From Chitinophagales bacterium (GTDB lineage: Bacteria > Bacteroidota > Bacteroidia > Chitinophagales > Chitinophagaceae), in NCBI GenBank assembly GCA_030832085.1, contig JAURJU010000064.1:62001-126000 (forward strand): a stretch of 64,000 bases of DNA, given 5' to 3'. Every line of letters begins with the position of its first letter. Position 1 is the stretch's first letter. This document shows, piece after piece, positions 47,826 to 62,847 of this stretch. The notes below the pieces were generated by a model, which searched no databases, was not told where the DNA came from, and saw nothing but the letters and a program-made list of their open reading frames with translations. The translations under genes were made by a program, and so were the position numbers.

Positions 47826-48938
47826 ATGAAATTTATCGTTTCCTCATCAGCCCTTCTCAAACAGCTGCAGCAGATCAATGGTGTAATCGGATCAAACAAT
47901 GTATTGCCGATCCTGGAGGATTTTCTTTTTGAGATTGAATCCAACAAACTCACGGTTGTTGCAACAGATCTGGAAACCGTCATGAAGATCCACCTCGATA
48001 TTGAAGCCAAAGAGGGTGGTCGGGTTTGTATTCCTGCAAAAATCCTCATGGATTCTCTCAAAAACCTGCCAAATCAGCCCTTGGCCTTTGATATAGACAA
48101 GAATTTTGGGATTGAAATCACCAGCGACAATGGCAAGTACAAGGTAATGGGAGAAAATCCCGACAACTTTCCAAAAGAGCCGCCGACAGACGAAACCTCA
48201 GCGTTTACAATGACAAGCCATGCGTTGTTGACAGCCATCAACAAAACAATTTTTGCCGTCAGCAATGACGATCTGAGGCCTGCGATGACCGGTGTTTTCT
48301 TCGAGTTGGAAAAATCCGGAATAACCGCTGTTGCAACAGACGCACACCGCTTGGTGAGGTATAAAATAAAGGATGTAAAATGTCCTCGTACAGACAATTT
48401 TATTGTTCCAAAGAAACCCCTTAACCTGTTGAAGGGCTCTTTGCCAGACAATGATGATGAGATTTCAATTTCCTATAACAGCAACCACCTGTTTGTAACA
48501 CATGGAACGGTTGAGCTCTCATGCCGCCTGTTGGATGCCCGATTCCCAGATTATAAGGTGGTTATTCCTGCAGAGAATCCCTATAGAATGACGATTGGCC
48601 GACAAGATTTCCAATCCGCCCTTCGTCGCGTCAGCATATTCAGCAACAAGAGCACCAATCTTGTTACCCTGAGCATTTCAGGCAGCGAATTGCAGCTTCT
48701 TGCCCAGGATGTTGACTTCAGTTTTGAAGGAAATGAAAGGATGTCTTGCCAATACGATGGTGAAGACATCACCATTTCTTTCAATGCGCGCTTCTTGATT
48801 GAAATGCTTGGAAGCACAGACAGCGAGGAGGTGCGTCTCGAACTTTCAACCCCAACAAAAGCAGGCCTGATCAAACCGGTAGAGCAGGAGGAAAACGAAG
48901 ACCTGTTGATGCTGGCCATGCCATTGATGTCCAACTAA
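47826..48938 (+). CDS. dnaN: DNA polymerase III beta subunit (sliding clamp)
   Basis: MKFIVSSSALLKQLQQINGVIGSNNVLPILEDFLFEI; ATDAHRLVRYKI; C-terminal LMLAMPLM. Confidence 0.98.
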   Translation: MKFIVSSSALLKQLQQINGVIGSNNVLPILEDFLFEIESNKLTVVATDLETVMKIHLDIEAKEGGRVCIPAKILMDSLKNLPNQPLAFDIDKNFGIEITSDNGKYKVMGENPDNFPKEPPTDETSAFTMTSHALLTAINKTIFAVSNDDLRPAMTGVFFELEKSGITAVATDAHRLVRYKIKDVKCPRTDNFIVPKKPLNLLKGSLPDNDDEISISYNSNHLFVTHGTVELSCRLLDARFPDYKVVIPAENPYRMTIGRQDFQSALRRVSIFSNKSTNLVTLSISGSELQLLAQDVDFSFEGNERMSCQYDGEDITISFNARFLIEMLGSTDSEEVRLELSTPTKAGLIKPVEQEENEDLLMLAMPLMSN

Positions 48939-51096: not shown

Positions 51097-53220
51097 TCAG
51101 TAACCGGCTTCCCTTCTTTTGTCAACGATTTTCATTGACTTTTTCAGAGACTCCATCGTACTGTATCCTGCAAATTGCTTGATTTGTGCCTCAAGCGCCT
51201 TCTTTTGTCCTGCAAAATCAACTGCTGCGGAAGGAAGGGCACCGACTTGATTCACTTTAATATAGTATACACCATTTTGTCCGTCAATCAGGTCTGATGT
51301 ATTAGACAAGTTCTTTTTGTAAAACGCTGCACCAATGACTTTTGTTTCTGATCCAAGATTTGGAACAAACGGATCAGCGAACCTTACCGTATCGGCCCTA
51401 CCAGCAGTTCCCCCCAATAAACCAGCGAGCTTTTCAAGGTTTTTTTCAGCTCCTGCCCTTTGTGCAATCATTTCTGCCTTCTTTTTATTCCTCAGGGTTG
51501 GTTCCACCAAGACCCTTGCTACTGATGCCGGCTGAAGACCTTCCTTTATTTCATTGGTGATCATGGCTACCACATACTGGTCTTTGAGGTCAAAAGGTTC
51601 AGAGACCGTCCCTGTCTTGTTCTCAAACACCCATTTCACAACAGCCCTGGATGCAAGTGGTCCTGCACTATAATCCAGTTCCTTGATGTTGTCTGCTGTG
51701 TTTTTGGTGATTTTCATTTTTGCAACCGCTTCATCAAAGGATTTGGGATCCCTGCTGCTTCCCGCAAACTGTGTTGCTGCTGAGGATGCCGTTGCATCCG
51801 TTTCGTCGCTGGCCACAATCGGCTTGGACAAATAAGCCACCTTATAGCCGGGTTCAAAGTTTTTTTGGTTCAACACTTCAATGATATGGTAACCAAAATC
51901 AGTTTTAACCACCTCCAAGCTCCCTTTGGGTTTGTTGAAAATGAAGTTGGAAAATTCTTTTGCAAGGTTCATGTCTACGGAAGAGAAATCATACTCCCCG
52001 CCTTTTGCTTTGCTTCCCTCGTCGTCACTGACTGCGGCGGCAAGCGCACCAAAATTTCCTCCGGATTTGATGACTGCGAAAATGCTGTCTACCCTTTTTT
52101 TGGCTGCACTGTCACTCCTGCGCTGCTGTCCTGTTTGTGGATCAACAATGCCAACAAGAATATGCCTGCATTTTACGGAATCAGGCAAGTTTTTTGCTTC
52201 TATTTTTTTTGCGATGACATAGCTACCACCATCAAGGTATGGACCAACAACTGATCCTACAGCCATTGATATGATGGAATCTTTGGCTGCCATTTGCAAT
52301 TTTGACTTCAGCGCAAATCCATCATAATAAGGAAGCGCGGTATTGTTTTTTGTAACAAAACCTCTCGCATCGTTGGTGGAATAAAAATCAGCCTTCAATG
52401 CATTGAGCTGGTTGAATACACGGGAGGAATCTTGTGTGGTTGGGTTTGCACTAAAAGATACATATGCAATGCTTTTTACATGCTCTTGCTTGAAATCATC
52501 TTTGTGCTTGGAAACATAATCGTTTATTTCTCCATCACTTACTTTTATGGTGCTATCTGAAACAGTAGTATAGGGAACACTTACAAATGAGATGGATGCA
52601 AACGAAGCATTGTCGGCCACCATTTTCTCCAGCATCCATTTTGGAACATAGGATGCCTGTGTAAAGAGAGATGTATATTTTTGGGACAGAAGATTTGTTC
52701 CAATGGGCTTGATGAGTTGCTCTTCAATGTTTGCGGCATCCTCTTGTTTCGAACTCTTTTTTACATTGTTGAACCAGTTTCTTGCAGCATTTACATCATA
52801 TGCGCCTGTTGCCTTGTCAGCAAACATTTGCTTAAATTCCTGGGGGGCATCCTCTGAAAACAAGACGGCACCAAGCTCTTTTGGTGTAACAGCAAGTCCT
52901 AATTTTGCTGCTTCTCCATTGATCATTTCTTCCTGAACATAAGAGTTCCAAACATTTTCAACAATTGTTTGGGTCATCATTTCATTGGTTTGCATTCCCT
53001 GGGACCTGTAGTTCTGCTCAACCATGTTCACTTTTTTGCTGAATTCCATCAGCTCAATATCCTTTCCGTTGATGGATCCCGCAGAGGTTGATTGGCCACC
53101 AAACAGGTTTCCGCTTTTGCCTATGAATGCATCTTGCACCAAAAAGCCAATCAGGCTGATGGCAATCATTGTGGTAAGCAAAACAGCTGCCTTGTCTCTG
53201 ATTTTTTGAATAATTGACAT
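51097..53220 (-). CDS. PpiD/SurA-type membrane-anchored peptidyl-prolyl isomerase
   Basis: MSIIQKIRDKAAVLLTTMIAISLIGFLVQDAFIG; SurA_N-like middle; parvulin domain (KCRHILVGIVDPQTGQ...GGNFGALAAAVSDDEGSKAKGGEYDFSS). ATG at 53220 preferred. Confidence 0.92.
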   Translation of the reverse strand: MSIIQKIRDKAAVLLTTMIAISLIGFLVQDAFIGKSGNLFGGQSTSAGSINGKDIELMEFSKKVNMVEQNYRSQGMQTNEMMTQTIVENVWNSYVQEEMINGEAAKLGLAVTPKELGAVLFSEDAPQEFKQMFADKATGAYDVNAARNWFNNVKKSSKQEDAANIEEQLIKPIGTNLLSQKYTSLFTQASYVPKWMLEKMVADNASFASISFVSVPYTTVSDSTIKVSDGEINDYVSKHKDDFKQEHVKSIAYVSFSANPTTQDSSRVFNQLNALKADFYSTNDARGFVTKNNTALPYYDGFALKSKLQMAAKDSIISMAVGSVVGPYLDGGSYVIAKKIEAKNLPDSVKCRHILVGIVDPQTGQQRRSDSAAKKRVDSIFAVIKSGGNFGALAAAVSDDEGSKAKGGEYDFSSVDMNLAKEFSNFIFNKPKGSLEVVKTDFGYHIIEVLNQKNFEPGYKVAYLSKPIVASDETDATASSAATQFAGSSRDPKSFDEAVAKMKITKNTADNIKELDYSAGPLASRAVVKWVFENKTGTVSEPFDLKDQYVVAMITNEIKEGLQPASVARVLVEPTLRNKKKAEMIAQRAGAEKNLEKLAGLLGGTAGRADTVRFADPFVPNLGSETKVIGAAFYKKNLSNTSDLIDGQNGVYYIKVNQVGALPSAAVDFAGQKKALEAQIKQFAGYSTMESLKKSMKIVDKRREAGY

Positions 53221-53246
53221 ACTATATATATTATTATAAGAGTGGG

Positions 53247-53277
53247 CAAAAATAGGGTAAAAATGGTTATTAACAAA
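53247..53277 (-). promoter_or_regulatory. Bacteroidota-type promoter of ppiD-like gene
   Basis: Minus strand TTTG (53277-53274), 19-nt spacer, TATTTTTG (53254-53247), matching TTTG-N19-TAnnTTTG; 26 nt upstream of ATG. Confidence 0.65.
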
Positions 53278-53278
53278 C

Positions 53279-53760
53279 TGTGGAAAACGGGGTTTTCGCA
53301 TGGTTTTTTACGCCGTTCTTCTGTGTTTTAGGGTCTTTGGGGTGATTTTTTTGGTTTTCCACACCTGCTTGTTCATAAACCTGTTTTGATGTGGATTACT
53401 GGACTTTATCAACTTTAAAATTGTGGATTGTTTTGAACAAGTTTTGTCTTTTTGGATCTTCATTTGAATTTTCTGTTTTTTAGAACATTTTACCCAATGT
53501 TTATCCACAGTATTTTTTTGGTGTTTGGAATGTTGAAAAAAAATAAAATATATTTCTAAAATGTTAACATCTTATGATTTAGCCATATAAAACAATGATT
53601 TTAATCAGGTGTACAGATGTGAACAATTGTGAATTGCTGTGATTAAAGGTGGAACAAAGCATGATAAAAAACAGTTTCCAACATATCCACAGTCCTAATA
53701 GTAATAGTTTATTTTATATATAATATATAATTATAAATACTACAGTAGATATCAACATTG
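53279..53760. other. Candidate chromosomal replication origin (oriC): DnaA-box-like cluster plus AT-rich unwinding tract
   Basis: DnaA-box-like 9-mers at 53279-53287 (TGTGGAAAA), 53355-53363 (TTTTCCACA), 53390-53398 (TGTGGATTA), 53422-53430 (TGTGGATTG), 53501-53509 (TTATCCACA, perfect), 53683-53691 (ATATCCACA), followed by AT-rich tract 53699-53750. Confidence 0.7.
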
Positions 53761-53869
53761 AATTGCAACAAAAAAAACAATCAAAGGAACTGAATTTTTG
53801 AAATTATCCTTGTTGCTTACTTTGGGCATTTGGTTTTTATCTCGGATCAAACATGCTTATCTTTAGACC

Positions 53870-54481
53870 ATGAAAATCATCAGGAATATTATATTTGATC
53901 TGGGCGGCGTTCTCATTGATTGGAATCCTGATTATATGTATCAATCGCTGATCATCAATGAACAGGAACGTAAACATTTTCTCGACCATATTTGTACACT
54001 TGCCTGGAATGAAGAGCAGGATGGGGGAAGGTCTATTCATGAAGCCAATCAATTGTTGATTTCAAAATTTCCTGATAAAAAGGATTTAATACTCGCTTTT
54101 TATGATCGATGGGAAGAAATGTTAAAAGGTCCCATTGAAGGATCTGTAGAAATTTTGCGTAAACTAAAAGAAAATAAAGCTTACAATATTTATGCATTGA
54201 CCAATTGGAGTGCAGAAACTTTTCCGCGGGCCTTGGAATTGTTTGATTTTTTACACTGGTTCGATGGTCGAATTGTTTCTGGCGAGGAAAACACAAGAAA
54301 ACCCTTCAAGGAAATTTATGAGCTCACTCTTTCCAGGTTTGATCTTGACCCATCAGAAACTGTTTTCATTGATGATAACATGAGAAATATAAAAGCAGCT
54401 GAAACATGTGGGATATCTTCCATCCATTTTCAAAACCCTGAAATACTTCTCAGGGATTTAGAGAAGTACAATATACTTTGA
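53870..54481 (+). CDS. HAD-superfamily hydrolase (haloacid dehalogenase/YihX-like)
   Basis: NIIFDLGGVLIDWNPDYMY; ALTNWSAETFP; VFIDDNMRNIKAAETCGISSIHF. Confidence 0.92.
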   Translation: MKIIRNIIFDLGGVLIDWNPDYMYQSLIINEQERKHFLDHICTLAWNEEQDGGRSIHEANQLLISKFPDKKDLILAFYDRWEEMLKGPIEGSVEILRKLKENKAYNIYALTNWSAETFPRALELFDFLHWFDGRIVSGEENTRKPFKEIYELTLSRFDLDPSETVFIDDNMRNIKAAETCGISSIHFQNPEILLRDLEKYNIL

Positions 54482-61167: not shown

Positions 61168-62847
61168 TCACTTGTTCATGGTGGCAAGAAACTCCTGGTT
61201 GTCTCTTGAACCTTTCATTTGTTTGATGAGAAGGTTCATTGCCTCTTCGCTGTTCATGTCTGCAATGTGGTTCCTGATGATCCACATTTTCTGCAATACA
61301 TCTTTTTCAAGGAGAAGGTCTTCCCTTCTTGTTGATGACGCGGTAAGGTCGATGGCAGGGAACATGCGCCTGTTGGCCAAACGCCTGTCAAGCACCAATT
61401 CCATATTGCCCGTTCCCTTGAATTCTTCAAATATCACTTCATCCATTTTGCTGCCCGTGTCAATCAGTGCTGTGGCAAGTATGGTCAAGGATCCTCCATT
61501 TTCCACTTTTCTTGCTGCTCCAAAGAATTGTTTTGGTTTTTGCATGGCATTGGCTTCAACACCCCCAGACAACACCTTTCCGGATGAGGGCGCTACCGTA
61601 TTGTGTGCTCTTGCAAGCCTAGTAATGGAATCCAGCAAGATCACGACATCGTGTCCACATTCTACCAATCTTTTTGCCTTTTGAAGGGCCATGGTAGAGA
61701 CTTTTACATGCTTGTCTGCGGGTTCATCAAAGGTTGATGCAAGAACTTCTGCCCGCACGCTCCTTTCCATGTCTGTTACCTCTTCCGGGCGTTCGTCAAT
61801 CAACACCACCATCAAATAACATTCTGGATGGTTCGAGGCAATTGCATTGGCAACCTCTTTGAGCAACATGGTTTTACCCACCTTTGGTTGTGCAACAATC
61901 AGACCCCTTTGACCCTTTCCCAGCGGTGTAAAAAGATCCATCATTCTGGTTGAATAATTGTCTTGCTTGGTGTACAAGTTGAACTTTTCAAAAGGAAACA
62001 ATGGTGTCAGGTAGTCGAAAGGAACCCTGTCGCGCACATCGTCTGGCAATCGACCATTAACGGTATCCACTTTCAACAGGGCAAAATATTTTTCTCCTTC
62101 TTTTGGAGGACGAACGCTTCCGGTAATGGTATCGCCGGTTTTAATTCCAAACAATTTGATCTGGGAAGGAGAGACATATACATCGTCCGGGGATGACAAA
62201 TAATTGTAATCACTGCTTCTCAAGAAACCATAACCATCTGGCATCATTTCCAATACACCCTCACCCAAAATGGCGCCGTCAAATTCAACATTGAATACGG
62301 GCTCTTTTTTGATGAAGAGTTGTTTTGAAGGCACCTCTTCCTGTGCAATGGTATTTTCCGGTGATTGCGGCTCTTCCCCATCATTTGAAACCTCCTGCAG
62401 TTTTGCTTGATCGGGCTGCACCATTGTTGTTTGTGCAGGAATGGGTTTAATTTTTTTGATGGGTTGCTTTTCTATTTTTACAACCGGAGTTTCTGTTTCT
62501 TGCTGAACTGGAGTGGCAGATGCAGGCGGCCTTCCTCTTTTTGCAACCTTTTTTTCCAATTTAGGTGCTTCTGTTCCCCCTATAACCTCACTGCTGGCAT
62601 CTTCCGATTCTACAATCGCCTCTTCGGTACTGTTGGCTGTTGTAGTTTTTACAATCCGCTTCTTCCTCACCACCTTTTCTTCCTTGCCTTCGGCTTTTGT
62701 AACACTGTTCAAGATGGCCTGTTTATCAAGAATCTTATAAATCAGATCTTGTTTTTCCATTTTCTTCACCCCTGTTATTTTGAGTTCTTCTGCGATATCA
62801 AGCAGTTCTGGAACAAGCATGTCGTTCAGCTGTAGAATGTCGTACAT
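61168..62847 (-). CDS. rho: Transcription termination factor Rho with extended disordered N-terminal insert
   Basis: [81 protein letters not shown] at 62847 preferred. Confidence 0.97.

Follow-up and report, generated by a model that had tools for sequence, protein, structure and literature searches.

The non-coding gap at 53221–53869 of the analyzed DNA is very probably the chromosomal origin, oriC, of this Chitinophagaceae bacterium. This reading, already proposed in the earlier note, is supported by six DnaA boxes, a box–trio motif that is unique in the organism's own genome, the conservation of the arrangement beside ppiD in the family, and a GC-skew switch that falls at or close to this site in three relatives. 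The oriC is ordinary by its parts; its family-wide place beside ppiD, away from dnaA, is worth recording.

The window, i.e., the whole stretch of 64,000 nucleotides that was analyzed, covers positions 62001–126000 of contig C36 (192.6 kb). The assembly comprises 2.89 Mb in 111 contigs, and the named relatives of the source genome are Chitinophagaceae. The gap has a G+C content of 29%, as compared to 44.5% for the window, and it separates a ppiD-like gene and a HAD gene, which diverge as had been claimed (Table 1). An Rfam search of the window returned no match. The distance of about 4.3 kb given earlier for dnaN agreed with our measurement from its end at 48938. The statement that dnaA is missing from the window was also correct: the gene sits on a separate 11 kb contig (C24) of the same assembly. 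According to its translation, the encoded DnaA is full-length and carries the box-reading signature GGRDHTTV. Upstream of this dnaA, the segment 1640–1900 of the locus (L001) contains two TCCACA hexamers, possibly for autoregulation, in an arrangement that is inconsistent in relatives. The open ppiD frame extends upstream to an ATG at 53301, but the start at 53220 (MSIIQ) was conserved in 17 of 17 aligned orthologues.

Table 1. Features of the probable oriC region and its surroundings (window coordinates; identities refer to the window sequence).
Feature	Position	Strand	Remarks
dnaN, sliding clamp	47826..48938	+	End 4.28 kb from the gap
ppiD-like gene	51097..53220	-	SurA_N_2 and PPIC rotamase domains; conserved neighbor of the probable origin in the family
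Probable oriC region	53221..53869		Whole ppiD/HAD non-coding gap; box cluster conserved in relatives
ppiD promoter	53247..53277	-	-33 TTTG (53274-53277), 19-bp spacer, -7 TATTTTTG (53247-53254)
DnaA box 1	53279..53287	-	TTTTCCACA; directly next to the promoter's -33 element; identity 0.98 (11 gaps)
DnaA box 2	53355..53363	+	TTTTCCACA; identity 0.80 (11 gaps)
DnaA box 3	53390..53398	-	TAATCCACA; identity 0.88 (11 gaps)
DnaA box 4	53422..53430	-	CAATCCACA; identity 0.74 (11 gaps)
DnaA box 5	53501..53509	+	Perfect TTATCCACA; identity 0.90 (11 gaps)
DnaA box 6	53683..53691	+	ATATCCACA; adjoins the trios; identity 0.91 (11 gaps)
Spacer	53692..53695	+	GTCC between box 6 and the trios; GCCC in many relatives
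Four DnaA-trios	53696..53707	+	TAA TAG TAA TAG (TAATAGTAATAG); sole box–trio match in the window; identity 0.98
AT-only stretch, likely unwinding element	53708..53739		32 A/T bases; identity 0.84; predicted to unwind
HAD-like hydrolase gene	53870..54481	+	Gap neighbor chiefly in the genus

The trio repeat beside box 6 had been missed in the earlier note, as had the ppiD promoter beside box 1. In the basal unwinding system (BUS), a DnaA box is followed by a short spacer and a repeated trinucleotide with the consensus 3'-GAT-5' (PMC6669920, PMC8287927), and at least three trios are expected no more than 16 bp from a box (PMC8287927); the gap contains four, 4 bp past box 6. The pattern TCCACA-N4-TARTARTAR occurred only once in the whole 2.89-Mb genome, inside the gap. 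It was present in 15 of 61 genomes, and 13 of those 15 matches were located just upstream of ppiD. The strict local box–trio pattern was found upstream of ppiD at 37 of 78 named loci and in none of 1560 shuffles; the box-to-trio direction pointed away from ppiD in all 37 matches. A relaxed pattern, set after inspection of the data, matched 71 of the 78 ppiD loci versus 5 of 1560 shuffles. The block 53708–53760 (TTTTATAxATAATAxATAATTATAAATACTAC ... ATTAACA) was conserved nearly base by base across the genus. This conservation exceeds the needs of an unspecific AT-rich stretch, and the block may hold a further protein site.

To follow the arrangement in other organisms, ppiD orthologues were taken from relatives within the genus and the family and from named genomes. 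Most of the relatives' ppiD upstream regions carried TCCACA clusters, and 199 hexamers were counted in 63 non-redundant 700-bp upstream regions, where 19 were expected from shuffles, which reached 35 at most. The boxes are thus conserved in the orthologous gaps, which the earlier note had named as a check on the origin. A motif-free ranking of 9-mers in these regions yielded the box words TATCCACAG and TTTTCCACA, the trio word TAGTAATAG, the box–trio joining words CACAGCCCT, and the promoter word CTATTTTTG. When 11 gaps were aligned, they matched the window sequence with an identity of 0.58 over the whole gap, and the boxes and trios stood out as islands of conservation. The proposed synteny of ppiD, gap, and HAD with dnaN nearby held in part. 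The link to ppiD was strong, whereas the proximity of HAD and dnaN was mainly a feature of the genus and of a few other genera; dnaN was frequent within the fetched locus in the genus and in Flavihumibacter, and it was not general.

The orthologous position was kept within the family and not outside it. In the 1.5 kb upstream of ppiD, the 17 loci from other families of the order contained 0–2 TCCACA hexamers and no trio, as did the loci that represented other orders and classes. A phylum-wide linkage to ppiD was rejected on the absence of the cluster and the trio from the families, orders, and classes sampled outside Chitinophagaceae. Within the family, a few exceptions occurred: one locus (L036) had no boxes upstream of ppiD, and another (L141) had neither boxes nor a trio there. 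In a further genome (G080), the locus L314 carries a box–trio cluster (800–1900; 12 hexamers over 3 kb) beside an ABC-transporter gene, approximately 250 kb from ppiD. This suggests that either ppiD or the origin-like cluster moved, and L314 is a candidate relocated origin. In most of the sampled Chitinophagaceae, the probable origin adjoins ppiD, not dnaA.

The textbook neighbor of the origin is dnaA, and in many bacteria the origin is located there. We compared the two positions by GC skew in three near-complete chromosomes of relatives, sampling 40 pieces of 20 kb from each (approximately 11–16% of each chromosome) and fitting a two-segment model. For G030 (5.08 Mb, one contig), the best-fit origin was at 3.70 Mb, with ppiD at 3.71 and dnaA at 1.93 Mb. 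For CP128386 (Chitinophagaceae bacterium DXS, 7.29 Mb), the corresponding positions were 4.20, 4.37, and 0.09 Mb. The scaffold of Cnuella takakiae, which spans 5.59 Mb and was taken as circular, gave an origin at 0.44 Mb from GC skew or 0.58 Mb from the third codon position, with ppiD at 0.60 and dnaA at 1.70 Mb. The skew origin was thus 0.01–0.17 Mb from ppiD in the three chromosomes, where dnaA and ppiD are 1.1–3.0 Mb apart; in the organism studied here, the two genes are on different contigs. Fixing the origin at ppiD cost 0.0–2.2 units of n ln(RSS ratio), as compared with 6.9–10.4 units at dnaA. The fits explained 23–48% of the variance and the acceptable ranges spanned about 1–2 Mb or more; by itself, skew thus places the origin only coarsely. 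At this resolution, the switch was at or near ppiD in all three chromosomes. The two refuting conditions of the earlier note, an origin-distant skew minimum and a lack of boxes in orthologous gaps, were thus both examined in relatives, and neither outcome contradicted the origin. The coding-strand bias agreed in G030 only, and not in CP128386 or Cnuella takakiae. Within the window, the skew was mostly negative on both sides of the gap, and there was no switch at the gap; with only 10 kb to the right, this carries little information.

These fits disfavor an origin at dnaA, for which the boxes beside ppiD would be a DnaA-titrating or regulatory cluster. Clusters of this kind outside origins occur in other bacteria, and the two TCCACA hexamers at the organism's own dnaA lie within 80 bp upstream of the gene (L001 1778 and 1856). 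Nevertheless, the dnaA regions of relatives contained few hexamers and no consistent cluster, and the trio module is found beside ppiD, at a single site in the genome. Together with the skew of the three chromosomes, this makes an origin at dnaA very unlikely.

The origin-side box closest to ppiD is joined to a promoter. The Bacteroidota promoter consensus consists of TTTG at -33 and TAnnTTTG at -7 (PMC7366714). The ppiD strand reads TCCACA-G-TTTG-N19-TATTTTTG, so that box 1 is directly followed by the -33 and -7 elements. Close to the start of ppiD, 50 of 78 loci contained a promoter match (0.2 expected), with the 19-bp spacer in 41 of those 50. At 43 of the 78 loci, and in none of the shuffles, TCCACA was located at most 3 bp upstream of the promoter. 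This abutment would also be expected if the cluster were solely a DnaA-controlled ppiD promoter with no origin role. We regard this explanation as still less probable than an origin at dnaA: conservation extends to five more boxes, the trios, and the AT stretch, at distances of up to 460 bp from the promoter, and the skew switches at or near the locus in three relatives. Moreover, a promoter is compatible with an origin, as both can share the gap.

If the gap is both origin and promoter, box 1 may control ppiD, or ppiD transcription may affect the origin. As a tentative and rather unlikely extension, the Chitinophagaceae origin, tied to ppiD and not to dnaA, would possess in box 1 and the -33 element a conserved origin–promoter module. 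Origin-bound DnaA would then govern the transcription of ppiD; alternatively, transcription of ppiD that begins at the origin would promote initiation or fix its timing. Such a module, if true, would link envelope protein folding to replication.

The number of boxes exceeded the chance level. As had been claimed, the gap holds six TCCACA/TGTGGA hexamers (53279-, 53358+, 53390-, 53422-, 53504+, and 53686+), all within 413 bp (53279 to 53691). Dinucleotide shuffles of the gap contained 0.41 TCCACA on average and 4 at most, and six were reached in 0 of 5000. Over spans of 410 bp, the window is densest here, with 6 hexamers; the next independent span contains 3. The three 9-mers reported to fit TTWTNCACA, including the perfect one at 53501–53509, were verified, as was the AT-rich run after the boxes (53705–53739). 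Three such 9-mers inside the gap were unusual (11 of 5000 shuffles), although over the whole window the pattern was at chance (12 found, 11.9 expected); the strength of the box evidence is therefore the clustering. The gap thus displays the beyond-chance cluster of DnaA boxes in non-coding DNA that marks a bacterial oriC. The least credible alternative, namely that the hexamers are a by-product of an AT-rich divergent promoter region, as the window-wide chance level might suggest, was rejected on the shuffle test, the ten-fold TCCACA excess in the relatives, and the aligned, conserved boxes of their gaps.

For the gap as oriC, studied bacteria suggest the following course of initiation. DnaA would bind boxes 1–6. 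From box 6, a DnaA filament would grow over the GTCC and along one of the two strands of the TAATAGTAATAG trios, and melt the adjoining AT-only stretch. The melted stretch would let the helicase load, and two forks would depart in opposite directions.

In the open-access literature, we found nothing relevant on an oriC described in Chitinophagaceae. In many draft and metagenomic genomes of this family, the site upstream of ppiD with a box, GCCC, and TAATAGTAATAG can serve as an anchor for oriC, while a search beside dnaA would mislead by megabases. Such an anchor aids coverage-based growth-rate estimates and helps to orient assemblies and to design oriC plasmids. The features used here, namely the skew switch, DnaA-box cluster, trio, AT-rich stretch, and neighbor genes, are shared with the criteria of the DoriC and Ori-Finder predictions (PMC6323995, PMC10225481). 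Compared with the Bacillus subtilis-type BUS oriC, the gap is not adjacent to dnaA, and box 6 is single beside the trios, with no tandem partner identified. Common to both are the box, the short G+C-containing spacer, the TAG/TAA trios, and the AT-rich stretch (PMC6669920, PMC8287927), as well as additional boxes upstream. The set of origins examined for unwinding in vitro in these two studies includes no Bacteroidota species, and the gap adds a comparative case of the box–trio unwinding module in this phylum.
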